Of a DNA stretch of 64,000 nucleotides, positions 1,265 through 23,446 are shown piece by piece; the stretch's first letter is position 1, and each line of letters opens with the position of its first letter. Position numbers and translations under genes: made by a program. A model generated the notes under the pieces. It did no database searches. It saw only the letters and a program-made list of their open reading frames with translations, and had not been told where the DNA came from. Origin of the DNA: Hufsiella ginkgonis (GTDB lineage: Bacteria; Bacteroidota; Bacteroidia; Sphingobacteriales; Sphingobacteriaceae); contig NZ_WVHS01000004.1 of the NCBI RefSeq assembly GCF_009834915.1, positions 434,001-498,000 on the forward strand, read 5' to 3'.

Positions 1265-1542
1265 CCCGTGTTTTCGAAGCCGTTTAAGGCCAATGAAATT
1301 GATTAGCTAGCTGGTAATTGTATAACAAGATTACAAATGTTTTTCCAAAACTCGGGCTACACCCTGACAAATTGTAACAAAACCTAACATATCCGGTCCG
1401 GCGTTCCCCTCATAGGAAGAGCGGGATTCGAAAAGCGCCGGGCAACAGCCTGTAACCAGGAGTAAATGCGATCGCCCGCGACCGGATGCCGGGGCAAGGA
1501 TGTAATAAAGAGGCGCAGTATGAACTGCGCCCCTGGTATGAC
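1265..1542. other. Intergenic gap with weak promoter-like repeats
   Basis: No gene is supported here. Read on the minus strand, the segment has GTTAGGT (1388-1382), GTTACAA (1378-1372) and GTCAGGG (1368-1362) at 10-bp steps, followed by GAGTTTTG (1353-1346), a near match to the TAnnTTTG -7 element. This resembles, less exactly, the phased arrays before the GH71/99-like, GH63-like and SusC genes, and may be the promoter of the kelch gene. Confidence 0.35.
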
Positions 1543-4847: not shown

Positions 4848-6143
4848 TTATTGATGTGAAGTAGGATGCGCCCAAACCAGGGCGGTCTGGCTCTTTACCA
4901 TCCTGGCGCCGTCGCCGGTAAGCCTCAGGTAAAAGTCCGACGAACAGTTCACGCCATCTGCGTTGAGCGTAAGGAAGTATTGGTTGGTGGGGATCATCGA
5001 ACTGTTTTCGGCAGCCTTGGCAATAGCGGTTGCCTCGTCGTATTCATCGAACATGGCCACGTACACGTTAGGAATCCCCTGGTTGCGGATGTTGGCAAAC
5101 TGCCGCCACATAAAATCTCCGTGGAGGCGGGGGACCTCGTTCTTAGGCGTTCCCGGCTTCCAGTTAGACCAGGCGAACCCGGGGAATACCACGGGTTGGT
5201 AATCGATATTCCGGCCGTTGCAAATGGCGAGGTCGTTCTGCATGATACTGGCATAATTATCGGCAGCGGCCAGGCTGTTAAACGTACCTACAGACCATGG
5301 CGAGATCATATTTGACGCATAATACGCGGAAAGATTCGTAGCATCGCCGCGCCAATCGCGCTTCACGCCAATAATTACATAACAACCCTGCGCCTTAAAC
5401 CAGTTGATCACCTCGAGCCACGAAGCTGCGTTGCCGGGGCGGTTGGGCACGCCTATACCCCAGATGCATACGACGGGCTTACCGTTCTGTTTCGCGTATG
5501 CGCCGGAAGTAGTATGGGTTTTCATGGCGTTGGTCCAGTCGGTTTTAATCTCCGCCTGGAAATTCGTCCACCCCGAAATATCGTACATCACGTAAAACTT
5601 CCTGCCGTAGTTCTCCGCCTGGTTACGTGCTTTGGCCATGATGCTGTTCTTAAAATCGCGGTCCCGGTTATCGGCGAACATATGTGCACCGAACCGCTGC
5701 ACGGCAGCACAGTCTATACCGTATTGCTGCATCCATTGAAAATGCCGCTGAACCGTTTGCGACGTCCACGACGAGAATAGTTTTGCCGGCTGACCATTAC
5801 CCAGGCTAGCATAATTGGTGGCATACGTAGTGGTGTATTCCCGTACGTCGGGATAAAGCTCGAACGTTTGATTGCCCGGCCCGGGTGTACCCCCGGCAAC
5901 CCAATGCCTCCAGGAGTTAAAAGGAGAGCCATCGCCGGGTCCGCCAAACCACCCCTGGTAGCCTACCACCAGCTTGCCCACAACATCGCCTACAGGTGAC
6001 GCCGATACCTCGTTTTGTTCTTTTCGGGAAGCCGCAGGGGCATCGGCCTGCCCGGGATTCTCATTTTTCGTACAGGCGCTTAAAGCCGCCGACAGGAAGA
6101 AGACGTGCGCAAAGCGCCGCAAATGACCGTGCTGGTTTTTCAT
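4848..6143 (-). CDS. GH71/99-like lipoprotein, putative glycoside hydrolase
   Basis: A 431-residue exported protein with a lipoprotein signal (lipobox LSAC, Cys24) and a low-complexity linker, then a single TIM-barrel-like domain that opens with VVGYQGWFGGPGDGS. This opening and the later FDEYDEA segment match proteins annotated as glycoside hydrolase family 71/99-like in Bacteroidota; true GH99 members are endo-acting alpha-mannosidases. The catalytic residues cannot be assigned with confidence from sequence alone. It is the first gene of the minus-strand run 6143 to 1543, reading away from the GH63-like gene, with a phased repeat array in its promoter. The neighbouring esterases suggest an acetylated, alpha-linked glycan as target; this is inference. 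Confidence 0.8.
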   Translation of the reverse strand: MKNQHGHLRRFAHVFFLSAALSACTKNENPGQADAPAASRKEQNEVSASPVGDVVGKLVVGYQGWFGGPGDGSPFNSWRHWVAGGTPGPGNQTFELYPDVREYTTTYATNYASLGNGQPAKLFSSWTSQTVQRHFQWMQQYGIDCAAVQRFGAHMFADNRDRDFKNSIMAKARNQAENYGRKFYVMYDISGWTNFQAEIKTDWTNAMKTHTTSGAYAKQNGKPVVCIWGIGVPNRPGNAASWLEVINWFKAQGCYVIIGVKRDWRGDATNLSAYYASNMISPWSVGTFNSLAAADNYASIMQNDLAICNGRNIDYQPVVFPGFAWSNWKPGTPKNEVPRLHGDFMWRQFANIRNQGIPNVYVAMFDEYDEATAIAKAAENSSMIPTNQYFLTLNADGVNCSSDFYLRLTGDGARMVKSQTALVWAHPTSHQ

Positions 6144-6199: not shown

Positions 6200-6260
6200 C
6201 AAATAAAAAGACGGCGGCTTAACAGCACCCTAACAAAACCTTAACCGGCAAAACCTTACG
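6200..6260 (-). promoter_or_regulatory. Phased GTTA repeat array and promoter of the GH71/99-like operon
   Basis: On the minus strand three repeats GTTAAGG (6245-6239), GTTAGGG (6234-6228) and GTTAAGC (6223-6217) lie exactly 11 bp apart. A looser fourth copy is at 6260-6254. The -7 candidate TTTATTTG (6207-6200, one mismatch to TAnnTTTG) begins 16 nt after the G of the nearest repeat. The same repeat and the same 16-nt distance recur before the GH63-like and SusC genes. Confidence 0.6.
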
Positions 6261-6323
6261 CTTTTTTCTTTTTCCCTGCTTAAAATGATGTGATTTTCAA
6301 CATCGGCACGGGCCATTATTAAT

Positions 6324-6382
6324 CTGTTAATGGGCTGTTAGCCCGTTATTATCCCGCTGTTAACCTGCGGGGTTTACTTTGT
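6324..6382 (+). promoter_or_regulatory. Phased CTGTTA repeat array and promoter of the GH63-like gene
   Basis: CTGTTA occurs at 6324-6329, 6335-6340 and 6357-6362, spacings 11 and 22 bp. TACTTTGT (6375-6382), a -7 candidate, begins 16 nt after the G of the last GTTA. Two of the copies also sit in short hairpins (GGGCT/AGCCC at 6332-6344 and CCCGC/GCGGG at 6353-6371). Confidence 0.55.
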
Positions 6383-6412
6383 GCCGCATAGATCGCCTAC
6401 TAATCAAACTAC

Positions 6413-8320
6413 ATGAAATTTCCTTTCTCTCTTAACGGCTGCGGTTTACCGCTACGCTTATCCTGTCTGCTCCTGGTGGGCATCATATGGCCCGGAGCGG
6501 TTTCGGCCCAACCCGTGGCCCGGCAAATAAAGACGCCGGAATACCGGGCACTGCAAAAGGAACTGTCATCCGGCTGGAACACGTGGTACAACAACAGCGT
6601 GATCACCCAGGCGTTGCTGCCCGAGTCATTTGCCATTAACCTCTGTATTGCCCATAAAAACAGTTCCGACTTTCTTAAAGAAGTGCTGCCGTCAACAGAG
6701 ATATTGAAGCGGCCCGAGAAAGTCACGCTCGGCTTAAGGGCCGATGACGGCAGCTATACCAGCCTCCGGCTCAGCTATAAAGGCGACGAGCTTGATATCC
6801 AGACAGCCACCCGGGATGGCGAAGAATATATCCTGGTTACATCAGCCAAACCCTCGGCGGCGTATTTGATCGCAGAGGCTGGGATACTCTGGAATGCCCC
6901 GGGCGCGGTTGGCGCCTCCGCAGATCGCCTCTTCGGCGAATTTGGCGCCAGGCGGATCCAGGTGTTCTTTACGGAGAAACCCGTTCAGCAGGCTTATGTG
7001 GGCAGCACCGGGCCGCACCTTACTTTCCCGCTAACAACGGAGCTGGGAATCTCTACCGGCCGCCGGTGCACGCTTGCCGAAATCCGGTCGGTTATTGCGC
7101 AACGGCGCGCAGCACAGGAAAAAAGAGTGAGCGCTTACGGCGACCTCTCGGAACCGTTCAGGGCCATGCAATCCGTTCTCGCATGGAACACGATCTACGA
7201 TGCCGCCAATCAACGCGTAATTACCCCCGTAAGCCGTTTATGGAACTACCGCTGGGGCGCGGGATATGTGCTTTTTAACTGGGATACCTATTTCGCAAGC
7301 TACATGCTCGCACTATTTAACAAAAAGCTGGCCTATGCCAACGCGGTCGAAATGACGAAAGCGATTACACGGGAAGGTTTCGTACCTAATTTCCAATCCA
7401 TTGGCAGGGGTGTTTCTACCGACCGCTCACAACCGCCGGTCGGCAGTACCATCATCCTGAATATTTACCGCCAGCACCGCGATAAATGGTTCCTGGAAGA
7501 AGTGTACGATGAACTGCTTACCTGGAACCGGTGGTGGCCGAAACACCGGAATATCGACGGATACTTAGCGTGGGGATCTTTTGACGGCGCTACCGGCCGC
7601 GTATCGCAAACATTCTCGAAATATGAATCGGGCCTGGACAATTCGCCGATGTATGACGGTGTGCCGCTGGATTCAGTAACTCATACCCTCGCCCTTGCCG
7701 ACGTTGGCCTGCTGAGCCTGTATATCTCAGACTGCCGGGCATTATCGGCCATCGCCTCCGAACTTGGAATGACCAATGACGCCCGTGAGCTCAACCAACG
7801 GGCAGAGCTGTATAAAAAGAAACTGGTGACGCTATGGGACGAAAAATCGGGCATTTACCGCAACAAAAGGCTTGACAACGGAGCGTTCAGCCCGCGGCTC
7901 TCACCCACCAACTTCTACCCGCTATTAGCCGGCGTACCCACCGCCGAACAGGCGGAACGGATGCTCAAAGAACACTTTTACAATGCCGGCGAATTTTACG
8001 GCCGGTTCATGATCCCCTCTGCGCCCAGGAACGACCCGGCTTTTAAAGACAACGACTACTGGCGCGGAAGGATCTGGGGGCCGCTCAACTTCCTGACCTA
8101 CCTGTCATTAAAAAACTACGAAACCGCTCCGGCAAGGGCTGAGCTCATTCAAAAATCCAGGGAATTGTTTTTCAAAAACTGGCGTCTGAATAACGGCGTG
8201 TACGAAAACTACAACGCCGTAACAGGCCAGGGAGGCGATGTGATTAATGCTGACGGCAGCTACCACTGGGGCGCTCTGCTGGTTTTTATGGAATTTATTG
8301 AAAAGGGGCTGATCAGGTAA
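6413..8320 (+). CDS. GH63-like glycosidase (MGH/trehalase-fold), exported
   Basis: A 635-residue protein with an N-terminal signal peptide (cleavage near VSAQ). A beta-sandwich N-terminal region (about 35-225) is followed by an (alpha/alpha)6 barrel. Marks of GH63 are WDTYFASYM (290-298), ESGLDNSP with the probable general acid Asp409, YWRGRIWGP, and YENY with the probable general base at about Glu598. Family members cleave alpha-glucosidic or mannosylglycerate linkages; bacterial GH63 specificity varies. The gene stands alone between the divergent GH71/99-like operon and the SusC operon and shares their promoter architecture. Length is usual for the bacterial branch of the family. Confidence 0.85.
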   Translation: MKFPFSLNGCGLPLRLSCLLLVGIIWPGAVSAQPVARQIKTPEYRALQKELSSGWNTWYNNSVITQALLPESFAINLCIAHKNSSDFLKEVLPSTEILKRPEKVTLGLRADDGSYTSLRLSYKGDELDIQTATRDGEEYILVTSAKPSAAYLIAEAGILWNAPGAVGASADRLFGEFGARRIQVFFTEKPVQQAYVGSTGPHLTFPLTTELGISTGRRCTLAEIRSVIAQRRAAQEKRVSAYGDLSEPFRAMQSVLAWNTIYDAANQRVITPVSRLWNYRWGAGYVLFNWDTYFASYMLALFNKKLAYANAVEMTKAITREGFVPNFQSIGRGVSTDRSQPPVGSTIILNIYRQHRDKWFLEEVYDELLTWNRWWPKHRNIDGYLAWGSFDGATGRVSQTFSKYESGLDNSPMYDGVPLDSVTHTLALADVGLLSLYISDCRALSAIASELGMTNDARELNQRAELYKKKLVTLWDEKSGIYRNKRLDNGAFSPRLSPTNFYPLLAGVPTAEQAERMLKEHFYNAGEFYGRFMIPSAPRNDPAFKDNDYWRGRIWGPLNFLTYLSLKNYETAPARAELIQKSRELFFKNWRLNNGVYENYNAVTGQGGDVINADGSYHWGALLVFMEFIEKGLIR

Positions 8321-8347
8321 TCCCGGCTACCCCGCGAATTATCTCTC

Positions 8348-8427
8348 GTTAAGGTTTTTTTAAGGTCTTGTTAGGGCTGCATTCATGTATTATTTGAGTG
8401 CTTGTTAAGGCTGTCTCTTTACTTAGC
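8348..8427 (+). promoter_or_regulatory. Phased GTTA repeat array and promoter of the SusC operon
   Basis: Repeats GTTAAGG (8348-8354), TTTAAGG (8359-8365), GTTAGGG (8370-8376) and GTTAAGG (8404-8410) are spaced 11, 11 and 34 bp. The last two lie in a 14-bp near-repeat, TCTTGTTAGGGCTG and GCTTGTTAAGGCTG. A promoter fits just downstream: TTTG (8393-8396), 23 nt, then TACTTAGC (8420-8427), which again begins 16 nt after the G of the last repeat. The GTTA(A/G)G core fits the GTTN(A/G)(T/G) part of published LytTR binding sites; that the local LytTR protein binds here is inference. Confidence 0.6.
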
Positions 8428-8551: not shown

Positions 8552-11500
8552 ATGAACTTTTATTTTACCAGTAGCAGCATGTATTCAAAATGCATGCAAA
8601 AGATGCTGCCAGCTACCCGGCTCACTTCGGTGTTGCTGATGGTCTCGATAGCAGCTTTCCCCGGGCGTACCTCAGGCGCGGAACCGGGCATAACAACTCA
8701 TCGGCTTGTGCCCGTTAACGCACCCGTTACGGTTACCGGAAAAGTTACCGACAACAAAGGGGAAGCGCTTCCAGGCGTCACCGTACTGGAGAAAGGAACC
8801 ACGAACACTACCGCAACCACCGGTAACGGCAGTTTCAAAATAACGGTAGCGGGCGAAGATGCCGTACTGGTGTTCTCGTTCGTTGGCTTCGATACCAAAG
8901 AAGTTAGCGTAAAGCGGCAAACCACCGTGGATGTGCGGCTCACCTCATCGAGCACCGACCTTACCGAGGTAGTAGTGGTGGGTTACGGCCAGCAAAAGAA
9001 GGTTACCGTAACCGGATCCGTGGCTTCCGTTACCGGGGCGGAGATCGTTACCACCAAAACCCAGAACCTCCAGAACACACTCACCGGGAAAGTACCCGGG
9101 CTGCGGGTGATCCAGCGAACCTCCGAGCCGGGCACTTTCGATAACAGGTTCGATATCCGCGGATTCGGTAACGCCCTGATCGTGGTAGACGGAGTGCCGC
9201 GCGGCAATATCGAGCGGATCGACCCCAATGATGTGGAGAGCATCTCCGTACTCAAGGATGCGGCGGCTGCCGTATATGGCGTACGGGCGGCAAACGGGGT
9301 GGTGCTTATCACCACTAAGAAGGGTACGCAGGGAAAGGCGCGGATCGAGTATTCCTACCTCGCGGGATTCCAGAATCCCAGCGGCTTACCCCGACCACTT
9401 AACGCGGTTGACAGGGCAGTGATCTTTAATGAACAATCCATGCACAGCCTTACCAACCCGGTGATTACCGTCCCCGACGACCTCATTAAACCCTACATCG
9501 ACGGCACACGCGACGATATCGATTGGTATGACCGGGTGATGCGCGATAACGCGCCGCAGTCGCAGCAAAACCTGGGTGTAAGCGGGGGCTCAGACAAGGT
9601 AGACTACTTTGTTAACCTCGGCTATGCCTACCAGGGCGGCTTTTGGCGAACAAACGACCTCAACTATAAAAAATATAACTTCAGGACGAACCTGAATGCT
9701 GCCATCTCCGACCGGCTGAAAGCCTCGCTGAGGATCAGCGGCGTAGTCGACCAGCAGGACCGCCCTTTCCGGGATTCGTGGGAGATCTTTAAAAACCTCT
9801 GGCGGTCGCGTCCCGATGATTATTATTACGCCAATGACAATCCGCAGTATATTTACCGCAACCAGGCGGATTATCACCCGGGAGCGATCTCCAGCTCCGA
9901 CTATTCCGGCTACCACATCATTAACAACAAGATCTTCCAGAGCTCGTTCTCGCTCGATTACATGGTGCCCCGCGTAGAGGGATTAACCGCACGGGGAGTG
10001 TTCAGCTACGATGTGTCTATCGCCGACAGGACGGACTACCAGAAAACGTTCGCCGAATACGAGTACAATGCCATTACCAACGCCTATACACCGGTTAACT
10101 ACCAGGTACCCAACCAGGTGACCAGGAACTTCGGCAACAATCCAAGCCAGCTGGTACAGTTATCATTGAACTATAAGCATGCTTTTGCAAAGCACTCCGT
10201 TGATGCCCTGGCACTGGTTGAACAGAGCAGCAGCAGCGGCGACGGGTTCTTCGCGCAGCGCCAGCTTAGTATCTCGCTGCCTTACTTGTTTGCCGGTAAT
10301 GCCGCCAACCAGGTTGGAAATGCGAGCACCGGGAGCGTTTACCAGTTCGTAAATAAAGGGTTGGTAGGCCGCATCGATTATAACTACGCCTCGAAATACC
10401 TTCTCAATCTCAGCTTCAGGTATGATGGCTCTTCGAAATTCCCATCTTCCAAACAATGGGGATTCTTCCCCTCCGTCCAGGGCGGATGGCGGATCTCGGA
10501 AGAAGGCTTCTTCAAAAGAACAGAAGCGCTGTCATTCGTTTCGAACCTGAAGGCACGGGCATCTTATGGTGTGCTGGGTGACGACGGCGCGTCTTCCTTC
10601 CAGTTTATCACGGGTTACGACTACCCGTTCAGCGGCGGCAACAGCCAGGCGCTCGGCTCGGGTTACCTGTTCGACGGATGGACGACGGCCCTCGGCTTTA
10701 GAAGCGTAGCCAACCCGAACATTACCTGGTATACCGCCAAAATGACCAACCTGGGTCTCGACGCCGATCTATGGCGCGGCAAATTGGGTATTACATTTGA
10801 TGCTTTTCGCCGCGACCGCAGCGGTTTACTGGGAAACCGCCTGTTGTCACTTCCCCTCTCCTTCGGCTCGAGCCTGCCGCAGGAAAACCTGAACTCAGAC
10901 CGTACGGAAGGCTTTGAACTGGCGCTTACCCATAAAAACACCATCGGCGCCGATCTTGGCATCGACATCGGCGGCAATATTTCGCTTACCCGCACCCTGA
11001 ACCGCTACGTGGAGCGTGCGGCAGACGGCAGCTCGTATGCCAGGTGGCGCAACAGCCCCACAGACCGCTATAACGACGTATGGTTCGGGCTCGGTTACGT
11101 AGGGCAGTACCAATCTTACGAACAGATCCGCAATGCGCCGGTCTATACCGGCAGGGGCACCTTACCCGGCGACTACATTTACGAAGACTGGAACAACGAC
11201 GGTACCATCGACGACATGGACCGCTACCCGATCGCTACATCAACCAACCCCACAGCCGATTTCAACGGGAAAAGAAACTACCCGCTGCTCAATTTCGGCC
11301 TTACACTTGGCGCCCATTTCAAAAGCTTCGACATGAATGCGCTGTTCCAGGGTGCGGCACGCGCTTATGCATCGTACGGCGAAATGTACCAGGTACTTAC
11401 CTCCAATGCACTCGACTTTTTTATGGACCGGTGGCATCCGCAGGATCCAAAGAAAGACCCGTACGATCCTTCAAACATATGGGTTCCCGGGAAACAGGCC

Positions 11501-11770
11501 TATACGGGTACCTCCTTCGATATCAACTCTGCCAGGGGAATCCAGAACACGTCCTACGTAAGGCTGAAGACCATTGAGCTGGGATACACGCTGCCTTCAA
11601 AGCTCACGAAGAAGGCGGGCATAAGCAGCCTGAGGGTATATGCCAACGGGTACAACCTGTTCACTTTTTCGGGTGTATTGGGCATCGATCCCGAACACCC
11701 TTCTGATATCTACGGCTATATGTACCCGATGAACAAAACGGTAAATTTTGGAGCCAGTCTCCGGTTATAA
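8552..11770 (+). CDS. SusC/RagA-family TonB-dependent outer membrane transporter
   Basis: A 1072-residue outer membrane receptor that imports oligosaccharides together with the SusD lipoprotein. Order: N-terminal extension and signal (about 1-43), carboxypeptidase-D regulatory-like domain (about 60-130, VTGKVTDNKGEALPGVTV), the SusC signature VVVVGYGQQKK (TonB box region), plug domain with DGVPRGNIERIDPNDVESISVLKDAAAAVYG, then a 22-stranded barrel to the C-terminal beta strand. The MNFY start is common in Chitinophaga-type SusC proteins; the alternative ATG codons at 8579 and 8594 would still leave a signal peptide. It is followed by SusD after 20 bp, so the two are co-transcribed. Its promoter carries the phased GTTA repeats described at 8348-8427. 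Confidence 0.96.
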   Translation: MNFYFTSSSMYSKCMQKMLPATRLTSVLLMVSIAAFPGRTSGAEPGITTHRLVPVNAPVTVTGKVTDNKGEALPGVTVLEKGTTNTTATTGNGSFKITVAGEDAVLVFSFVGFDTKEVSVKRQTTVDVRLTSSSTDLTEVVVVGYGQQKKVTVTGSVASVTGAEIVTTKTQNLQNTLTGKVPGLRVIQRTSEPGTFDNRFDIRGFGNALIVVDGVPRGNIERIDPNDVESISVLKDAAAAVYGVRAANGVVLITTKKGTQGKARIEYSYLAGFQNPSGLPRPLNAVDRAVIFNEQSMHSLTNPVITVPDDLIKPYIDGTRDDIDWYDRVMRDNAPQSQQNLGVSGGSDKVDYFVNLGYAYQGGFWRTNDLNYKKYNFRTNLNAAISDRLKASLRISGVVDQQDRPFRDSWEIFKNLWRSRPDDYYYANDNPQYIYRNQADYHPGAISSSDYSGYHIINNKIFQSSFSLDYMVPRVEGLTARGVFSYDVSIADRTDYQKTFAEYEYNAITNAYTPVNYQVPNQVTRNFGNNPSQLVQLSLNYKHAFAKHSVDALALVEQSSSSGDGFFAQRQLSISLPYLFAGNAANQVGNASTGSVYQFVNKGLVGRIDYNYASKYLLNLSFRYDGSSKFPSSKQWGFFPSVQGGWRISEEGFFKRTEALSFVSNLKARASYGVLGDDGASSFQFITGYDYPFSGGNSQALGSGYLFDGWTTALGFRSVANPNITWYTAKMTNLGLDADLWRGKLGITFDAFRRDRSGLLGNRLLSLPLSFGSSLPQENLNSDRTEGFELALTHKNTIGADLGIDIGGNISLTRTLNRYVERAADGSSYARWRNSPTDRYNDVWFGLGYVGQYQSYEQIRNAPVYTGRGTLPGDYIYEDWNNDGTIDDMDRYPIATSTNPTADFNGKRNYPLLNFGLTLGAHFKSFDMNALFQGAARAYASYGEMYQVLTSNALDFFMDRWHPQDPKKDPYDPSNIWVPGKQAYTGTSFDINSARGIQNTSYVRLKTIELGYTLPSKLTKKAGISSLRVYANGYNLFTFSGVLGIDPEHPSDIYGYMYPMNKTVNFGASLRL

Positions 11771-11790
11771 CATTGATAAAACCCGAAATC

Positions 11791-13833
11791 ATGAAACATT
11801 CTATCATAAAACTGGCATCGGTCGCTTTCCTGGTCATGGGAGCTTACGCATGCAAAAAGCTGGACGTCGCGCCTCCTAACATCCTTACGGATGAAGTGGT
11901 GCTAAGCACCCCGGAAGGCATCAAAGCTTACATGGCTTCCCTGTATGGCAGGCTGCCCATCGAAGATTTTAAATACAGCGCCACGGATAACACCTTCGGC
12001 TACCGTGGTTTTAACACCTGGAACACCATCAACAGCTTATCGGTGAACACGGGCGAAAACGCAAATCGCAATTCCGGGGGCTTTCAAAACCCGGCGCAGG
12101 GCTGGTGGTCTGACGGGTACTCGGTGATCCGGTACGCCAATAACCTCATCGAGCAATTGCCGAAACAGCCGGCCCTCACCCCGGCCAACGTAAAACGGTG
12201 GGTAGGCGAAGCTTATTTCATGCGGGCTTACACCTATTTCGCGCTGGCTAAAAGGTATGGCGGCGTGCCGCTGGTAAAAAACATGCAGCAATATACGGGC
12301 AGCAACGGCGACCAGCTGTTTGTGCAAAGAAGCAGCGAAGACGAAAGCTTCGACCTGATCCGGGCCGACCTCGATTCGGCGATCAACCGGCTTGGCGAAA
12401 CCAGTGAAAACCCGGGGCGGGCCAATAAATATGTAGCTGCGGCTTTTAAGTCGAGGGCCATGCTCTACGCAGGATCGGTGGCACGATACGGAATACCCGT
12501 TTCGGTGAACGGCGTAATGGTGAACGGGATCCCCGCCGCCAAGGCAAACGACTACTTTAAAGAAGCTTATACCGCCGCCAAAATGCTCGAAGGTAAGTAC
12601 AGCCTGTATATGAAAAGCTGGTCGGCCACAGACAAGACAGCTGCAGCCAACAACTTCGCCAACCTGTTTTTAGATGCCGGCAGCCCCGAAAACATCTTCA
12701 CCAAAGGCTATTCCTTCCCGGATGCCGTACATAGCTGGGACCACCTCTACAACCCCACACATATGACACAGAGCGGCGGCGACCGCTACTGCCCCACCCT
12801 GGATTTCGTGGAAATGTTCGATGGGCTTAACAAGAATGCAAAAGGTCAGCTGGTCACTACCAATGCCAGCGGGGCCTATCTCGTTTATAATTCAGCAGCC
12901 GAAGCGTTCAGCAATGCCGAGCCAAGGCTGAGGGGATCGGTGCTGTTTTCGGGCAGCAAACACAAGGGCGCCACAGTCGACATCCGCCGCGGCATCTTCG
13001 TGGAAACCATCGATCCTGCTACGCCGGTTCAAAAATTCTTTCCCGATGAGTCAAAGCTGGCGTACTCGACCCTCGCTTTTTACAAGGATAACGTAAAGGA
13101 ATCTGCACAGGCGAACGCATCAGGGCAAACCGTTTACAAGTTATCGAACGGCGTGCAGCTTTACCCTTCCGGCCTCGACGGCGTGAGCTCGGCAAAAGGA
13201 TATGCCTCAGTTACGGGTTTCCAGGGCAGGAAATACCTGCTGCCCGACCTGGCGATCTCAAACACCAACATCCACCAGTCAACCCAGCCGTGGATCGAGC
13301 TCCGGTACGCCGAAGTGTTGCTCAACCGCGCGGAAGCCGCACTGGAGCTCTTCCAGAACAATGGTACCGTACCCGGTGCGGCCGACCTTCAGCAGGATGC
13401 TTTTGAATGTATGAACCTGGTACGTAACCGCGCCGGCGCCCAGTTACTGGCAAGTAAGGCCGATCTTTCTTCGGGTGCCGCGCTCACCCTCGCCGCCGGC
13501 GGATACGCGGTCGCCCCTAATCGCGCGCAGCAGCTGATCCGCGTGGAGCGCAAAAAGGAACTCGCCATGGAAAACAAGACTTATTGGGACCTGAAACGGT
13601 GGAGGACCTTCGACCAGGAAGTAAATGCCCGTATCTGGCGGGTATGCATGCCTTTCTTGTTTGCCAAAGGGGCGACTGCCGTGGCGGCCGACGACGTGCA
13701 GGGGAAATGGGCGCTGGACTGCCGCTACGATGAGCGGGGCTCTGCTTTCACTTTCCCGGTAAGGAACTACTACGAGCCGATCCCGGGAACGGAGATCACC
13801 AAGGGTTTATATGGCAACCCGGGACTTAATTAA
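11791..13833 (+). CDS. SusD/RagB-family glycan-binding lipoprotein
   Basis: A 680-residue surface lipoprotein (lipobox GAYAC, Cys about 21) that caps the SusC barrel and binds the glycan. The N-terminal segment DVAPPNILTDEVVLSTPEG and the TPR-like helices with WVGEAYFMRAYTYFALAKRYGGVPLV are typical of SusD. The C-terminal half has RYAEVLLNRAEAALE and RVERKKELAMENKTYWDLKRWR (given here as two separate motifs in the RagB domain). ATG 11791 is chosen over a TTG six codons earlier because the signal peptide begins there. It sits between SusC and the DUF3823 gene with 20- and 23-bp gaps. Confidence 0.95.
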   Translation: MKHSIIKLASVAFLVMGAYACKKLDVAPPNILTDEVVLSTPEGIKAYMASLYGRLPIEDFKYSATDNTFGYRGFNTWNTINSLSVNTGENANRNSGGFQNPAQGWWSDGYSVIRYANNLIEQLPKQPALTPANVKRWVGEAYFMRAYTYFALAKRYGGVPLVKNMQQYTGSNGDQLFVQRSSEDESFDLIRADLDSAINRLGETSENPGRANKYVAAAFKSRAMLYAGSVARYGIPVSVNGVMVNGIPAAKANDYFKEAYTAAKMLEGKYSLYMKSWSATDKTAAANNFANLFLDAGSPENIFTKGYSFPDAVHSWDHLYNPTHMTQSGGDRYCPTLDFVEMFDGLNKNAKGQLVTTNASGAYLVYNSAAEAFSNAEPRLRGSVLFSGSKHKGATVDIRRGIFVETIDPATPVQKFFPDESKLAYSTLAFYKDNVKESAQANASGQTVYKLSNGVQLYPSGLDGVSSAKGYASVTGFQGRKYLLPDLAISNTNIHQSTQPWIELRYAEVLLNRAEAALELFQNNGTVPGAADLQQDAFECMNLVRNRAGAQLLASKADLSSGAALTLAAGGYAVAPNRAQQLIRVERKKELAMENKTYWDLKRWRTFDQEVNARIWRVCMPFLFAKGATAVAADDVQGKWALDCRYDERGSAFTFPVRNYYEPIPGTEITKGLYGNPGLN

Positions 13834-13856: not shown

Positions 13857-14579
13857 ATGAAGATGAAAAAAATAGGCTACGCAATAGCAGCCGCCATCCT
13901 GTGTGCAGGTTTGCATGCCTGCGAAACGGATAACTACGAAGCGCCCGGCGAGACGCTGCAAGGCCGGGTAAGCGATGCGGCCGGAAATGGCCTCCAGTTG
14001 GAACAGGGCGCCAGCAGTGCACGAATAAAAATGGAAGAACTAAGCTTTAAAAACCCGGTACCGGTTTACCTGAACGTTAAACAGGACGGAAGCTTTATTA
14101 ACACCAAAGTATTTGGCGGCAGGTACCGTGTTTTCCCGGTTGAGGGGCCTTTCTTCCCGCTCGATAGCACGCAGATGCAGCTTGTAGACATCAGCGGCCC
14201 GGCCACGGCGAACTTTAAGGTGATCCCTTACCTGAACGTTGAATGGGTAGGCGATCCCGTAGTAGCGGCAGATAAAAAGATCACCGTATCTTTTAAGTTT
14301 ACCCGTAACGCCGCTCCTGCCGGTTTTACCCAACCTGCACCGGCAGATTACCAATTATTTATCTCCACCACGCAGTATGTTGGCAATAACAATTATGACA
14401 ACACCCGCGTAGGATCTGTAGTTACCGCTACCGCGGCGATGGAGAACCAGGTGCTCACCATCACTTCATCTCAGCCGATGAAATACGCCACCACTTTTTA
14501 TCTCCGCGTAGGTGTGCGCGTGAATGATAGTTTCAAGAAGTATAATTACACGCCTGTAAAATCAATCGTAATTCCCTAA
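13857..14579 (+). CDS. DUF3823 lipoprotein, third gene of the Sus operon
   Basis: A 240-residue lipoprotein with lipobox LHAC. The sequence ETDNYEAPGETLQGRVSD and the later YRVFPVEGPFFPLDS are marks of the DUF3823 family, a two-domain beta-sandwich found directly after SusD genes and thought to act as an extra surface glycan-binding or scaffold protein (SusE-like position). It ends the operon and is followed by a strong terminator. No catalytic residues are expected. Confidence 0.87.
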   Translation: MKMKKIGYAIAAAILCAGLHACETDNYEAPGETLQGRVSDAAGNGLQLEQGASSARIKMEELSFKNPVPVYLNVKQDGSFINTKVFGGRYRVFPVEGPFFPLDSTQMQLVDISGPATANFKVIPYLNVEWVGDPVVAADKKITVSFKFTRNAAPAGFTQPAPADYQLFISTTQYVGNNNYDNTRVGSVVTATAAMENQVLTITSSQPMKYATTFYLRVGVRVNDSFKKYNYTPVKSIVIP

Positions 14580-14656: not shown

Positions 14657-15370
14657 TTACCGCTTAAGCATGCGTTCTTCAATGCGTTTGATCACTTCCA
14701 TGCGATAATTCCGGCTAATGGGAAGCTGGCGTTCGCCGATGCGGATCATGTTCCCTTCTAACGCGTCTATCCGCGCGATGGCCACCAGGAAGGACTGGTG
14801 GATCTTTAAGAACTGCACCTGCGGCAACTGCACTTCAAGTCCCTTCATGGTAAGATACGCAATGATCCTTTTACCCGTGGTGCAGATCATCACATAGTTC
14901 CCCAGGGCTTCGAAATATAAAATATCCTTTAGTTCTATTTTTTCGATCCGTTTATCGGAGCGGACGAAAAGATAACCGGCAGAGAAATCGTGCGTCGGCC
15001 CGAAACTAAGCTCATGGTAATCTTTTGCTTTATGAACCGCCTTCAGGAACCTGCCGAGCGCGATGGGCTTAAGCAGGTAATCGACTACATCCAGCTCGTA
15101 GCCGTCCAACGCATAGTTGGGAAAGGCCGTGGTAAGGATAACCAGCGGCTTGCCGGCCGCGGAGCGAAGGTAATCGAGCCCCGACCGTCGCGGCATCTCG
15201 ATATCGAGAAAAACGAGGTCGATCGGGTCTTCCTGCAATGCCGTTTCCAGTTTTGCGATGTTTTCGCACTGCCCGCGCACATCAAGAAAAGGCACCTGGC
15301 CCGCAAATTCGCGGATCACTTTGCGCGCCACCGGTTCATCGTCTACGATCAGGCAAGTCAGGCGTTTCAT
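14657..15370 (-). CDS. LytTR-family response regulator
   Basis: A 237-residue two-component regulator. Receiver domain residues 1-120: acidic pair Asp10/Asp11, phospho-acceptor Asp56 in FLDIEMP, conserved Thr in LTTAF and Lys in LLKPI. LytTR DNA-binding domain residues about 135-235, with FEALGNYVMI and FLKIHQSFLV. LytTR proteins bind direct repeats about two helical turns apart. The gene overlaps the kinase stop by 4 bp (ATGA), so both come from one transcript. It lies convergent to the SusC operon, and the GTTA repeats at that operon's promoter and at two others nearby make it the best local candidate for their regulator. Confidence 0.93.
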   Translation of the reverse strand: MKRLTCLIVDDEPVARKVIREFAGQVPFLDVRGQCENIAKLETALQEDPIDLVFLDIEMPRRSGLDYLRSAAGKPLVILTTAFPNYALDGYELDVVDYLLKPIALGRFLKAVHKAKDYHELSFGPTHDFSAGYLFVRSDKRIEKIELKDILYFEALGNYVMICTTGKRIIAYLTMKGLEVQLPQVQFLKIHQSFLVAIARIDALEGNMIRIGERQLPISRNYRMEVIKRIEERMLKR

Positions 15371-16380
15371 AGGTTTAAATTCAGTATTACAGTGAACAGG
15401 CCATTTTCCGCGGTAATGGTTAAGGTGTGGCGTTTCGGGTAAAGCAGTTCCAGCCTGCGTTTTACATTTGCCAGGCCGATGCCGCCGGTACGGGCTTCGG
15501 GCGTTTCGTAAGAATTTACACAGCGGAAAACCACTTCGCTACCATGTTGTACCAGGCTAACGGTTACGCGGTTTTCCCGCCCGTCGTCACGCGTGCTGTA
15601 TTTAAAAGCATTTTCTACGAAAGCCACGAATAACAAAGGAGCGATCTTTAACCCTGGGTTTTCTACACGGGTATCCAGCGAGATTGCCAGGCTCGTATCG
15701 CTCCGTGCACGCTGCAATGCGATGTAATTTTCGAGGTAGGCAGCCTCTTTGCCCAGTTCTACGAAATCCGTGTCAGCCTCGTATAAATTATACCGCAGCA
15801 GGTCTGAAAACTGCACCACCATTTCGCGGGCCCTGGTATTTTCCATCTCAATGGTACCGTAAATCGTGTTCAGCCCGTTGAACAGGAAATGCGGGTTCAC
15901 CTGCGCACGCAGGTATTTTAGCTCGGTTTCCAGCTGCGAGATCTGGATATTTTTCATCAGCTGGCGCTGCTCCGACCACTTCTGCGCGTAGAATAACAAG
16001 GTGGAGATCACCAGGAACCATACCGCATTCACGGAATTCCAGTAAAAATACGAGTCGATCGTCATTACGTCTTTCGGCCATACTTTCGCATCCCAAAACT
16101 GCTGGTTCAGGCTCCGGAGATACGTATAAGCGAGAACGATGGCCAGCAGGCCTGCCACATACCCTGCATATCGCCGGTTATCCAGTAATACAGGTATCAG
16201 GAACCGCACATTGGTATACAGTAGCAGCGCAATCATGCCATAGAAAAGCAGCAGCGGCTGCAGCGACCATAAGAAGCCCCGCTGCATGATCCAGCCGCGG
16301 GAGTCCATGATACCATACACGACGTACAGCAACCAGAAAAGCCAGAAGAATAAATTGTTTTTGTTGATGATGAAACGCAT
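15367..16380 (-). CDS. LytS-type sensor histidine kinase (four membrane segments)
   Basis: A 337-residue membrane kinase partner of the LytTR regulator. Four hydrophobic segments lie at about 9-25, 40-58, 70-88 and 115-132 with short loops and no large periplasmic domain. The His_kinase domain has QVNPHFLFNGLN with phospho-acceptor His163, and a C-terminal HATPase region with N-box FVENAFKYS and GGIGLANVKRRL. Start 16380 was chosen because the first membrane helix follows at once; the longer open frame back to 16629 would overlap the divergent gene and has low-quality sequence. With so little outside the membrane the signal is unknown, though the PUL context suggests a sugar or cell-surface cue. 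Confidence 0.92.
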   Translation of the reverse strand: MRFIINKNNLFFWLFWLLYVVYGIMDSRGWIMQRGFLWSLQPLLLFYGMIALLLYTNVRFLIPVLLDNRRYAGYVAGLLAIVLAYTYLRSLNQQFWDAKVWPKDVMTIDSYFYWNSVNAVWFLVISTLLFYAQKWSEQRQLMKNIQISQLETELKYLRAQVNPHFLFNGLNTIYGTIEMENTRAREMVVQFSDLLRYNLYEADTDFVELGKEAAYLENYIALQRARSDTSLAISLDTRVENPGLKIAPLLFVAFVENAFKYSTRDDGRENRVTVSLVQHGSEVVFRCVNSYETPEARTGGIGLANVKRRLELLYPKRHTLTITAENGLFTVILNLNL

Positions 16381-16558
16381 AGCGATACGCTCTGTACACT
16401 CAAAGCTACAGGAAAAACAGAAATTCCGGCAGCTTTGGCTGGTCGTCGTTCCTGATTTCAGGTAAAATATACCGCTTGTGTAGGTTTCCTTCCAGGATAT
16501 CCAAAAATTTTTCTGGAACGGTGCAAATACATGATCTTCAGCGTCACACCCATTTCGT

Positions 16559-17707
16559 ATGACATTACCCGTTCCCTCATCGCGCCTGCGTTCTATAGAT
16601 CTGCTGCGCGGCATTATTATGGTGATCATGGTGATCGATCATGTACGCGTATATTCCGGTCAGCCACCCGGCGGACCGGAGCCGGGAATCTTCTTTACCC
16701 GCTGGGTCACGCATTTCTGCGCGCCGGTATTCGCCTTCCTGGCGGGCTCGGCGGCTTATTTTCACGGGCTCAAAACCAATCTCCGGCAGTTGTCCGTGTT
16801 TCTGCTCACCCGCGGCAGTATGCTGGTAGTACTCGAGCTTACGGTGGTGCGACTGGGCTGGACCTTCAACCTGCGCCTCGACCAGTTCATGCTGGCAGGA
16901 ATTATCTGGATGCTGGGTTGGAGCATGATCATCATGGCTGCCCTGGTGCGGCTTAAGCCGGCCGCGGTCGGGATCACCGGGCTGGCAGTGATCATTTTCC
17001 AGGATGTATTCAAACTCGTGCCCCGCATGGCGCCGGATTCCATTCGCGGAGCGTTTGCAAGGTACTGGGAGATCATTTACCCCTCGGGATCCAACGGCCC
17101 GGACTGGATCTGGGTGCTGTTTTCCGTCGTCCCATGGGTGGGCGTCATGGCGGCGGGTTACGGTTTTGGCATCGTCTTCAGGATGGAGCCGGCCAAACGC
17201 CGCCAGGTCTGCCTGGTGATCGGGATCACAGCGATCACTATTTTCCTGGCCGCGGGCAGCGTGATGACCATTTTACAACCCGGCAGCGCCAATACATGGC
17301 CATTCCTTTTCAAATTGCTCAACCAACGCAAATATCCCGCCTCACAGCTATACCTGTGCATGACGCTCGGCCCGGCAATCGCGCTGATCCCCCTGGCGGA
17401 AAAGGCGAAAGGGCGATTAGCCGAAGCGCTCATCACCATCGGCAGCGTACCGCTTTTCTACTATATCCTCCACATCCCGCTTCACCACGTAAGTGCTTTC
17501 GTAGTGAACCTCCTCCGTAGCGGCCGTACCGGGCAGGAATGGTACCACGTCGCACCCTTTACCGATGTTCCGCCAGCGTTTAAATGGCCGCTCTGGTGCA
17601 TTTATGCTGTTTTCGCGGTGAACGTGGTAATGCTATATTTTGCCTGCCGCTGGTACGCGAACTACAAGCGCATGCATCCGAAGCAGAAATGGATGAGGTA
17701 CATATAG
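16559..17707 (+). CDS. HGSNAT/DUF1624-like membrane protein, putative acyltransferase
   Basis: A 382-residue polytopic membrane protein with about nine or ten hydrophobic segments. The opening RSIDLLRGIIMVIMVIDHVRVY (shown in pieces: RGIIMVIMVIDH) with its conserved Asp-His pair is the hallmark of the heparan-alpha-glucosaminide N-acetyltransferase catalytic family (DUF1624). Related proteins move acetyl groups from cytoplasmic acetyl-CoA to sugars outside. The bacterial substrate is unknown. It is divergent from the kinase gene, with a 178-bp gap. Confidence 0.85.
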   Translation: MTLPVPSSRLRSIDLLRGIIMVIMVIDHVRVYSGQPPGGPEPGIFFTRWVTHFCAPVFAFLAGSAAYFHGLKTNLRQLSVFLLTRGSMLVVLELTVVRLGWTFNLRLDQFMLAGIIWMLGWSMIIMAALVRLKPAAVGITGLAVIIFQDVFKLVPRMAPDSIRGAFARYWEIIYPSGSNGPDWIWVLFSVVPWVGVMAAGYGFGIVFRMEPAKRRQVCLVIGITAITIFLAAGSVMTILQPGSANTWPFLFKLLNQRKYPASQLYLCMTLGPAIALIPLAEKAKGRLAEALITIGSVPLFYYILHIPLHHVSAFVVNLLRSGRTGQEWYHVAPFTDVPPAFKWPLWCIYAVFAVNVVMLYFACRWYANYKRMHPKQKWMRYI

Positions 17708-19930: not shown

Positions 19931-22900
19931 TTACCCCAGAAGCGTGAGTACCAGGCCAATCTCTTCGCGGATCTTTCCGGCCAGTGCCACCAGATCCTCC
20001 TGGTAGCCCGTCTCTTCCAGGTGCTCCAGCTGTTCCGCAAGCACCGATAGCGCCGGCAGGCCGGTAGACACCGCCGTTCCGTACAACTTATGTCCCATGC
20101 TTCTCAATTCCTTCACCGGCTGTGTTAATATGCCGTTATTTAACGCCGACAGTGTAAGCCTGAGCTCTGTCCTGGTGAGGGAGAGCACTTCATCCATTAC
20201 GACAGGGTCATTACCGATGTAATTTTCAAGCTGCGTAATGTCAAAATGTGCGGCCTTGTCTGCCGCAGCGATCTTCTTATCGGGCAGCCATTTCTTCAAC
20301 AGGAGTGTGATCGTTTCTTCTACTATGGGTTTCACCAGGAAATCATCCATCCCTGCCTCAATGCATTTCTCCTTCTCACTTTTCACGTTGCCGGCAGTGA
20401 GCGCAACGATAGGGACATGCGTTCCCTGCTCCAGCGTTCTGATCCTGCCGGTCGCTTCATAGCCGTTCATTTCGGGCATTTGTACATCCATCAGCACCAG
20501 GTCGGGAAGCCGGTTCCTGCAGTAATTCACGGCTTCGGCTCCATTTTTACACTCGATCACCGTTGCATGGGGCGCCACCCGCTGGATGAGGGTACGGGCC
20601 AGCAGCATATTTACGTTATTATCCTCGGCCACCAGGATACTGATCGGGCCGACTAATTGTTCGTGCCCTGGAACCTGTTCATTCCCGGTATTTGCCGGGC
20701 TCTCCTTCCTGTGCAGACGTGAAAGTGCGGTATAAAGGTCCTGCATCTTGATGGGTTTCACCAGGCGGTGACTCACTTTAAGCTCTTCACAGGCCCGGAT
20801 CACCTTCTCATCATCAGAAGAACTATACAGCAGGAGGATGGGGAGCTCTTCCGGCGTGCCGTAAAAATTCTCCCGGATCTTCCGGATGGTTTCCAGCCCG
20901 TCCATATAAGGCATGTGGTAATCCATCATTACCACGTCGAACTGCTCACCTTTTTCCAGGTAATGGAGCGCTTCGAGCCCGTTTTTGGCGGCCGTGCTCC
21001 GGATGTCTTTCAGCAGCAGCATCTGCTCCACGATCATCCTGTTGTTCTCATTGTCGTCTACGATCAGTACGTGCCTGATCGGCTCCAGGTTTTCCCAGTG
21101 CTCCGGTTCTCCCTGCTCGGCTTTCAGCACAATATCGAAGTAGAAGGTGCTGCCTTTGCCCGGTGTACTTTCCAGCTGCAGGTAACTGCCCATCAGGTGC
21201 AGCAGCTTGTTAGAAATGGTGAGGCCGAGGCCGGTTCCGCCATACTTTTTGGTGGTCGACCCGTCCTCCTGCGAAAAAGCTTCGAATATCTTCCGCTGTT
21301 TTTCGGGCTTAATGCCGATCCCGGTATCGCGCACGGCGAAACGGAGCGTGATCTGGTCGCCGGTATTGGCCAGCGCTTCTATTTTCATCTCAATCTCTCC
21401 CCTTTCGGTGAATTTAGAGGCGTTGCTCAGCAGGTTGATCAGCACCTGTTTCAGGCGCACCGTATCTGTCCAGATAAACCGGGGCAGTTCCGGGGGAATG
21501 TTCAGGAGCATTTCCAGTCCCTTGGTCTGGATCTGGTAGGTAATGATATCCGTTGCCTGCGATCCCAGCTCGTACAGGTCGCATTTTTCGATCTCCAGCT
21601 CGAGCTTGCCTGCTTCTATCTTCGAAAAGTCGAGGATGTCGTTAATAATACTCAGCAACGCGCCTGCCGATTGGTTAACGATGGTGAGGTATTGCTGCTG
21701 GATCTCGTTGAGCCCGGTTTTCAATACCAGGTCGGTAAAGCCGATCACCCCGTTCAGTGGTGTACGGATCTCGTGGCTCATATTTGCCAGGAACTCTGAT
21801 TTGGCCACGCTAGCCTGCTCGGCCTGTAGTTTGGCAGCCTCCAGCTCGCCCCGCTGGCGTACGCGTTCTGTAACGTCCTGGGTAAAGATCATGATGCCGC
21901 CAATCACGCCGTCTGACCGGTACCAGGGCCTCATTTCCCAATTGGTGTACTTTTCTGACCCGGTGTTGCCGGCAATGTGCTTAAACTCGTCCTGTTTCTC
22001 TATGGCGCCATGCAGGATACGTTGATGCCTCGCTTTGCTTTCCTCGGGCAGCCCCGGGAAAACGTCATAATAGGAAACGCCCGCCAGCTCGCGGTCATGC
22101 AGGTTATAATCTTCGATCCAGCAGTTACTTACCGCGGCGAACCGCATATTTTTATCCAGCATCGCCACTGCGGCGGGGGCATGCTGCACAAATGCGGCCA
22201 GGCGAGCCTTTTCGGTTACCAGCGCGTTCTGTATCTGCTGCCGTTCCGTGATATCTACTGCATTACCGATCACGTAGCGTTCGCCATCCTGCGTGGTCTG
22301 CAGGATATTGCTGAACATCCATACCAGCAGTGAGCCATTCTTGTGGCGGGTCACCATCTGACCTTTCAGGCTGCCCGCTTTTTGTATCTCTGCAAGGTAG
22401 GCCGATAAAAGCGGGTGTCTTTCTTGGGGGACAATATCAAAAAGGCTCCGCGCCGTGATCTCCCCGGGGGTATAACCCAGCATGGCGGCGCCGGCCGTGT
22501 TTACCGAGAGAAAATTTCCTGCAAGGTCATGCGTGCACATTAGTCCCTGCGAGTTTTCGAAGAACGCCCTGAAACGCGCCTCACTGGCAGCCAGCTGCGA
22601 TTCTTTGGTTTGCTCGACGGTAATGTCGCGACCAATAGCAAAGATAAGCTTCGTGGGTGCCTCGGGCGCCGCTACCCAGTGTACGGGCTTGTATTCGCCG
22701 GCGGCGGTTTTAAAACGAAGGGTAAAGCTAACCGCTTCCTGTGTATCCGACAACTTTTGCAGCGCGGTCACCGTATGGGCGTGATCATCCGGATGAAGAA
22801 TATCGAACAGCGTGTTTTTTAACAGGAACGCATCGTCGTACCCCAGCATTTTCTTAAAAGCGGGGTTCACTTTCCTGAAAACGCCGCCGGTTTCCACTAT

Positions 22901-23446
22901 GCAGATCAGTTCGTCGGAAAACGTAAATACCTTTTCGAAGATCTTTAGCTCTTCTTTTTGCCGCCGTTCTACGATGAGCGACATCACTTCCTGCGCCAGC
23001 AGCTGCATAGACCGGCGTTGTTTTTCGGTGAGCTTATTGGGCTTGGTGTCTATTACGCACAGGGAACCAAGTGCATAGCCGTTCGGATCGATGAGGGGAT
23101 ACCCGGCGTAAAAACGGATATCCGGAGCGCCCGTTACCAGCTTATTTTCTTTGAAGCGGTCGTCTTTGGTGGCATCGTTCACCTCCAGGGGGACATCCGT
23201 CATGATCACATGTCCGCAGAAAGCGAGGTCGCGCGGAGTTTCATCTGTCGTAATCCCTACTTTCGACTTAAACCATTGCCGGTCTTTATCGATAAAGGAT
23301 ACCAATGAAATAGGCATATCACAAATAAGTGATGCAAGTTCGGTAATACGGTCAAACTCCTCTTCGGCCAGGGTATTTAAGATCTGGTATTCCGCAAGGG
23401 CTTTTAACCGTTCCGTTTCATTTGCCGGTATTGGGTAGGTGCTCAA
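19931..23446 (-). CDS. Soluble hybrid sensor histidine kinase: GAF, three PAS, kinase, two receivers, HPt
   Basis: A 1171-residue multi-domain phosphorelay protein. Order: GAF (about 25-160, with FCGHVI and LGSLCVID), PAS (167-280), PAS (288-405), PAS (412-530), HisKA (548-615) with phospho-acceptor His558 in MSHEIRTPLNG, HATPase (about 660-775; NLLSNASKFT, DTGIGI, GTGLGL), receiver 1 (about 795-910, MMDYHMPYMDG), receiver 2 (about 935-1055, LMDVQMPEMNG) and a C-terminal HPt domain with the His in MGHKLYGTA. There is no membrane segment or signal peptide, so it senses a cytoplasmic cue. No output DNA-binding domain is fused and no partner regulator lies next to it, so the final target is unknown. 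It stands as a single gene. Confidence 0.95.
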   Translation of the reverse strand: MSTYPIPANETERLKALAEYQILNTLAEEEFDRITELASLICDMPISLVSFIDKDRQWFKSKVGITTDETPRDLAFCGHVIMTDVPLEVNDATKDDRFKENKLVTGAPDIRFYAGYPLIDPNGYALGSLCVIDTKPNKLTEKQRRSMQLLAQEVMSLIVERRQKEELKIFEKVFTFSDELICIVETGGVFRKVNPAFKKMLGYDDAFLLKNTLFDILHPDDHAHTVTALQKLSDTQEAVSFTLRFKTAAGEYKPVHWVAAPEAPTKLIFAIGRDITVEQTKESQLAASEARFRAFFENSQGLMCTHDLAGNFLSVNTAGAAMLGYTPGEITARSLFDIVPQERHPLLSAYLAEIQKAGSLKGQMVTRHKNGSLLVWMFSNILQTTQDGERYVIGNAVDITERQQIQNALVTEKARLAAFVQHAPAAVAMLDKNMRFAAVSNCWIEDYNLHDRELAGVSYYDVFPGLPEESKARHQRILHGAIEKQDEFKHIAGNTGSEKYTNWEMRPWYRSDGVIGGIMIFTQDVTERVRQRGELEAAKLQAEQASVAKSEFLANMSHEIRTPLNGVIGFTDLVLKTGLNEIQQQYLTIVNQSAGALLSIINDILDFSKIEAGKLELEIEKCDLYELGSQATDIITYQIQTKGLEMLLNIPPELPRFIWTDTVRLKQVLINLLSNASKFTERGEIEMKIEALANTGDQITLRFAVRDTGIGIKPEKQRKIFEAFSQEDGSTTKKYGGTGLGLTISNKLLHLMGSYLQLESTPGKGSTFYFDIVLKAEQGEPEHWENLEPIRHVLIVDDNENNRMIVEQMLLLKDIRSTAAKNGLEALHYLEKGEQFDVVMMDYHMPYMDGLETIRKIRENFYGTPEELPILLLYSSSDDEKVIRACEELKVSHRLVKPIKMQDLYTALSRLHRKESPANTGNEQVPGHEQLVGPISILVAEDNNVNMLLARTLIQRVAPHATVIECKNGAEAVNYCRNRLPDLVLMDVQMPEMNGYEATGRIRTLEQGTHVPIVALTAGNVKSEKEKCIEAGMDDFLVKPIVEETITLLLKKWLPDKKIAAADKAAHFDITQLENYIGNDPVVMDEVLSLTRTELRLTLSALNNGILTQPVKELRSMGHKLYGTAVSTGLPALSVLAEQLEHLEETGYQEDLVALAGKIREEIGLVLTLLG

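Follow-up and report, generated by a model that had tools for sequence, protein, structure and literature searches.

Phased 11-bp repeat arrays at the promoters of a Hufsiella ginkgonis PUL are putative operators for an OmpR/PhoB-type regulator acting in trans

The window analysed here is a stretch of 64,000 nucleotides from Hufsiella ginkgonis (contig NZ_WVHS01000004.1), and it holds a PUL that is transcribed in two directions. The minus strand of the PUL encodes a kelch protein, two ricin-lectin esterases and a GH99-like protein, while the plus strand encodes an MGH1-like glycoside hydrolase, SusC, SusD and a DUF3823 protein, followed by a convergent LytTR/LytS pair. The common view of PULs in Bacteroidota is that HTCS, SusR or ECF/anti-sigma pairs switch them locally. 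Neither an HTCS nor a SusR was seen in the window's PUL, the sole hybrid kinase nearby (19931-23446) is without an AraC domain, and the window holds no OmpR-type regulator gene. Farther along the window, 42194-46996 encodes a protein of 1600 aa, in which eight Ig_7 domains are combined with PKD-like domains and a CHU_C signal for type IX secretion. The genes of the locus and the repeats and -7-like elements at its promoters are as follows.

1363-1388, minus strand: degenerate array with 10-bp spacing, GTTAGG/GTTACA/GTCAGG, half-sites at 1388/1378/1368, upstream of the kelch gene
4848-6143, minus strand: GH99-like protein, whose gene heads the minus-strand transcript (Glyco_hydro_99, E 1.1e-5, below the Pfam cut-off)
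6200-6207, minus strand (read 6207-6200): -7-like element TTTATTTG, starting 16 nt past the first base of the final repeat
6218-6245, minus strand: triple array GTTAAG-N5-GTTAGG-N5-GTTAAG, half-sites at 6245/6234/6223, upstream of the GH99-like gene
6326-6364, plus strand: array GTTAAT/GTTAGC/ATTATC (degenerate)/GTTAAC at 6326/6337/6348/6359 in 11-bp steps, upstream of the MGH1-like glycoside hydrolase gene
6374-6381, plus strand: -7-like element TTACTTTG, starting 15 nt past the first base of the final repeat
6413-8320, plus strand: MGH1-like glycoside hydrolase
8348-8375, plus strand: triple array GTTAAG-N5-TTTAAG-N5-GTTAGG, half-sites at 8348/8359/8370, upstream of SusC
8404-8409, plus strand: isolated fourth half-site GTTAAG, the anchor used for the third promoter in the first-pass annotation
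8419-8426, plus strand: weak -7-like element TTACTTAG, starting 15 nt past the 8404 half-site
8552-11770, plus strand: SusC
11773-13833, plus strand: SusD
13857-14579, plus strand: DUF3823 protein
14657-15370, minus strand: LytTR response regulator, the candidate regulator of the first-pass annotation
15367-16381, minus strand: LytS-type histidine kinase, probable start 16381
16559-17707, divergent from LytS: HGSNAT-like acyltransferase

Re-reading the letters bore out all the repeat coordinates that the first-pass annotation had listed for three promoters (6245/6234/6223, 6326/6337/6359 and 8348/8359/8370/8404). Its description of these repeats as GTTA(A/G)-type is correct in general but not for the copy at 8359, which is TTTAAG, and the exact 11-bp phasing that it had claimed applies to the arrays at 6245-6218, 6326-6364 (with its degenerate copy at 6348) and 8348-8375 but not to the copy at 8404, which lies off-phase, 34 bp from 8370. 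Similarly, the -7 element had been placed 16 nt from the last repeat in all three cases; counted in a single register from the first base of the last repeat to the 8-mer TAnnTTTG, the distances are 16, 15 and 15 nt, i.e. fixed within +/-1 nt, and none of TTTATTTG, TTACTTTG and TTACTTAG is a perfect TAnnTTTG. The looser 10-bp version before the kelch gene is present as described, and GAGTTTTG at 1353-1346 lies 15-22 nt past its final repeat, which is the -7 register of the other promoters. In 1000 Markov shuffles of each of two intergenic regions, no triple equalled the observed scores of 18/18 and 17/18, and at spacings other than 11 bp the best triple in these two regions scored at most 15.

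In the 5.21-Mb genome, the triple GTTARG pattern at 11 bp occurs once without mismatch (window 6245-6218, minus strand) and once with one mismatch (window 8348-8375, plus strand), and both sites are in the window's PUL, 2.1 kb apart; at two to three mismatches, genome counts equal background. Looser TTAR triples at 11 bp are found at 23 distinct sites compared to 5 for a reversed-pattern control, each site being counted once because TTAA is palindromic and many TTAR sites are therefore listed on both strands. At least ten of them are at promoters of other PULs of the same genome. These include a paralogous PUL with GH99 genes (C1:489-502 kb), which has arrays 192 bp upstream of SusC and at two other transcripts, a PUL cluster with six arrays (C21:337-380 kb) and a SusCD operon at C1:999 kb (L339). 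Toward the gene, the PUL arrays share the consensus RTTAATSNTTT-RTTAATSTTTT-RTTAA, of which the window arrays are a GTTARG version.

The arrays are also conserved beyond this genome. The homologous SusC/SusD/DUF3823 loci of four other genera carry an array upstream of SusC, with exact triples in the homologous PULs L223, L260 and L263 and a near-match in L268; by genome, the match in G027 is a near one. The homologous PUL of G363 (GH99-like, SusC, SusD, DUF3823) has GTTAAGGTTTTGTTAAGGTTTTGTTAGT 162 bp upstream of SusC; this PUL was located via its array. Among 60 SusC upstream regions unselected for arrays, four contain exact TTAR triples at 11 bp, and none contains such triples at other spacings from 8 to 17 bp; the array-positive regions include close homologues of the PUL in G019 and G001 and the own-genome paralogue L271. 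Across the family, the strict GTTARG triple is present in 114 of 400 genomes, with about 180 sites compared to about 48 for the control (totals added up by hand), while in other families of the class there is no excess over control. In other genera, two to four arrays were seen clustered over a short span (G025:C5:36408-46816, G111:C22:2450-35589 and G107:C118/C265/C314), and these clusters are probably multi-PUL regions. Telomere-like GTTAGGGTTTAGTTAGGG repeats, which occur several per genome (L259, G254, G164, G305 and other g17 genomes), match the triple pattern too and look like a separate repeat element.

The position of the array relative to the -7 element recurs at sites outside those of the first-pass annotation. 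For 18 arrays, each oriented by the gene that follows it, the mean match to TAnnTTTG is 3.44 of 6 at offsets 15/16 from the final repeat and at most 2.22 of 6 at any other pair of offsets. None of 20,000 permutations, which preserve each row's base composition only, reached this value (p about 5e-5), and the preference holds with the 14 non-window sites alone or with the 10 non-window sites of the own genome alone; at L331, the array promoter has a perfect TAGTTTTG. With the -7 element at 15/16 nt from the last repeat, the spacing is that of activators making contact with RNA polymerase from the -35 region. Upheld by independent sites in the own genome and in four other genera, the earlier claim of a common operator architecture at the PUL promoters stands, and the phased repeats with their -7 spacing are a real promoter architecture, probably that of an activator.

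Which type of protein might read these arrays? Operators of OmpR/PhoB-type regulators are tandem direct repeats with an 11-bp period (6-7-bp half-sites and 4-5-bp gaps), located near or over the -35 region at a fixed distance to the -10/-7 element, and the window arrays have both properties. For instance, the CiaR operator is NTTAAG-N5-TTTAAG (PMC3091779), the SphR operator consists of three copies of 8-bp repeats with a 3-bp linker (PMC1906773), and the PHO box of 11-nt direct repeats (PMC4415409). Because 6-bp half-sites with 5-bp gaps in tandem near the core promoter represent the OmpR/PhoB layout, an OmpR/PhoB-type reader is favored over a LytTR reader. The arrays are probably operators read in trans by a regulator of the OmpR/PhoB type, an assignment that we make at the level of the family only.

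The genes close to arrays fit this reading at part of the loci, though not in the window. An OmpR/PhoB regulator gene lies within 2.5 kb of the array at 12 of 40 array loci family-wide and at none of 20 control SusC loci, the 12 loci representing only two locus types and not 12 independent events. In the first type (nine loci), the array separates a divergent HK/RR pair from the operon opposite, which belongs to a fucosidase/Sus or similar locus; the regulator of L221 was checked by Pfam and has Trans_reg_C. In the second type (three loci), the array is in the promoter of the OmpR-type regulator itself, and the own-genome orthologue L293, which is 87% identical to these regulators, likewise carries an array. 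At L221:7794-11582 and in its relatives L220, L224-L226, L230, L238, L254 and L255, a GTTAAG/GTTAGG array lies between the divergent OmpR-type HK/RR pair and an alpha-L-fucosidase/Sus locus, so that a PUL-type locus here comes with an OmpR-type system of its own. The own genome encodes 11 OmpR/PhoB-type response regulators. Among candidates, the OmpR HK/RR pair L300, 5 kb from the array of the paralogous PUL, is no longer preferred because only 1 of 20 loci of its relatives has an array. The regulator of the first locus type was also set aside as the in-genome reader, as it has no close orthologue in the own genome (best 36%, L301); the arrays of that type (GTTAAG/GTTAGG) and the own PUL arrays (RTTAAT) differ in sequence.

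The first-pass annotation had instead proposed that the PUL is switched by the adjacent LytTR system, with the LytS/LytTR pair at 14657-16381 reading the arrays and repeats 22 bp apart serving as a LytTR direct-repeat pair. The pair does adjoin the PUL, repeats 1 and 3 of the triple are 22 bp apart, GTTARG matches part of the core of the LytTR consensus, and the own array L339 has a different LytS/LytTR pair at a distance of about 3.5 kb, although that LytTR is only 29% identical. Nevertheless, operator geometry, orthologue loci and family-wide neighbours go against this proposal, which we consider unlikely. A LytTR operator is a pair of repeats with 11-13 bp between their edges, placed about 10 bp upstream of -35 (PMC6193735). 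In the window arrays, we find not two 9-11-bp direct repeats at this distance but a continuous 11-bp array, with the middle half-site conserved no less than those on either side, and the arrays are neither linked to nor co-inherited with a LytTR gene. The loci of the LytTR orthologues L110/L111 (59-60% identity) are without PUL and without arrays, beside an acyltransferase or unrelated genes; G138, the genome of L110, has no triple-GTTARG match, and the array-PUL genomes G001, G019 and G027 have no LytTR more than 43% identical to the window's among the matches listed. A LytTR gene lies within 2.5 kb at 0 of 40 array loci family-wide and at 0 of 20 SusC control loci, and the LytS/acyltransferase intergenic region has no array. 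Thus, the window LytTR regulator is probably not the reader of the arrays. Its closest relative is from a Mucilaginibacter MAG. In two genomes, the LytS/LytTR pair adjoins a membrane acyltransferase gene (window 15367-17707; L110:8994-12022), and the acyltransferase families differ; this arrangement suggests that LytS/LytTR and the acyltransferase are functionally linked and, because the window pair is divergent from the acyltransferase gene and the orthologue is beside one, LytS/LytTR may belong to that gene.

If a regulator of the OmpR/PhoB family does read the arrays, they could be PHO boxes bound by the PhoB-like L293, which would place the PUL in a phosphate-starvation regulon. The recognition helix of L293 is nearly that of E. 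coli PhoB, and 11-bp TTAA arrays are present directly upstream of the L293 gene (C12:130 kb; L293:9386-9413) and upstream of a SusCD operon with a phosphatase-like gene (C12:367 kb; L335); in other genera, arrays lie between the ECF sigma gene and the FecR gene in TonB/Sus loci, of which some also hold phosphatase or GDPD-like genes. However, while the 11-nt period is that of a PHO box, the orientation is opposite: the PHO-type loci read TTAAC toward the gene, as SphR boxes do, whereas toward the gene the window arrays have GTTARG, with GTTAGG among their half-sites. Moreover, no phosphate genes are present in the window's PUL, and a search of the own genome for phoU found none. We therefore regard PHO boxes in this PUL as very unlikely; the arrays that L293 seems to read have the orientation opposite to that of the window arrays. 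The arrangement of an array upstream of a PhoB-like regulator gene recurs in three other genomes. An ECF sigma gene lies within 2.5 kb at 12 of 40 array loci, most being of the sigma/FecR type, in which the array separates the two genes and has the opposite orientation. A conserved 11-bp TTAAC array between the ECF sigma and FecR genes of TonB/Sus operons is seen at L227, L228, L231-L235 and L246 (near 9990-10025), L231 and L232 also having phosphatase-like or GDPD-like genes as judged by N-terminal sequence; this array looks like a PHO box feeding the FecR/SusC operon. It is rather unlikely that the arrays serve another DNA-binding family (AraC-type, one-component or an unknown factor) or that, with no dedicated regulator, they act as phased A/T-rich upstream elements of the promoters. 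None of four 20-kb pieces from the C21 array cluster contains a regulator gene of any modelled family, and AraC-type HTCS likewise use direct repeats (PMC3878776); but HTCS motifs are two 12-16-bp sites with spacers, unlike 6-bp half-sites at 11 bp (PMC3878776), neither such sites nor an HTCS gene are found in the PUL, an AraC gene lies within 2.5 kb at 0 of 40 array loci, and conservation extends to the specific sequences of the half-sites, which phased bending by itself would not require. Finally, GTTA is a common word and, genome-wide, the pair pattern shows no more than about a twofold excess (56 vs 30), but the genome-unique triples, the excess of TTAR triples, the conservation and the -7 register make chance repeats of a common short motif scarcely credible.

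For the favored OmpR/PhoB-type reader, we suggest the following model. The half-sites, 6 bp each with 5-bp gaps and at least three in tandem on one helix face, would form an activator operator along which the phosphorylated regulator would bind head-to-tail. With the last half-site 15-16 nt upstream of the Bacteroidota -7 element, the bound regulator would touch RNA polymerase directly, and binding would activate the GH99-like transcript and the divergent MGH1-GH/SusCD transcript at the same time. The regulator would be encoded outside the PUL, most likely as one of the genome's 11 OmpR/PhoB-type proteins, and would probably serve several PULs in trans, including the C1:489-502 kb paralogue, the C21:337-380 kb cluster and C1:999 kb; the GTTARG and RTTAAT versions would then have the same or related readers. 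By extension, we tentatively speculate that Sphingobacteriaceae possess a PUL regulon in which one remote OmpR/PhoB-type two-component regulator coordinates several PULs via 11-bp arrays 15-16 nt upstream of -7, replacing HTCS, SusR or ECF regulators dedicated to each PUL. If so, an operator common to several PULs would hint at a global trans-acting layer of glycan control in environmental Bacteroidota. In the literature searched, no direct precedent turned up for such a Sphingobacteriaceae motif or for OmpR-controlled PULs. The arrays supply a motif with a promoter register that is directly searchable and testable.

The design of the arrays is in several respects similar to that of known systems. 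As in PUL control by HTCS, SusR or ECF sigma/FecR in Bacteroides, direct repeats lie upstream of SusC/SusD operons, which they would control; however, in Bacteroides, HTCS use two 12-16-bp sites with spacers of 5-9 bp and SusR sites are 67-77 bp apart (PMC3878776), and neither regulator was seen in the window's PUL. LytTR operators (AgrA, HdrR/BrsR, YpdB) share the GTT core and direct repeats upstream of promoters, but form a pair about 21-22 bp centre to centre that is set back from -35, whereas the window has a continuous 11-bp array by the -7 element. The PHO boxes of PhoB and SphR are likewise tandem 11-bp repeats near the core promoter (11-nt direct repeats; for SphR, three copies of CTTAACCT-N3) with a TTAA core and, in cyanobacteria, three copies; they differ in half-site sequence, in orientation to the gene and in that the window's PUL is without phosphate genes. 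Streptococcal CiaR operators, which belong to the OmpR/PhoB family, similarly have 6-bp TTAAG half-sites with a 5-bp gap and an 11-bp period in promoters, while the window arrays have three or more half-sites, a Bacteroidota -7 element and PUL targets, and their putative regulator is assigned here at the family level only.
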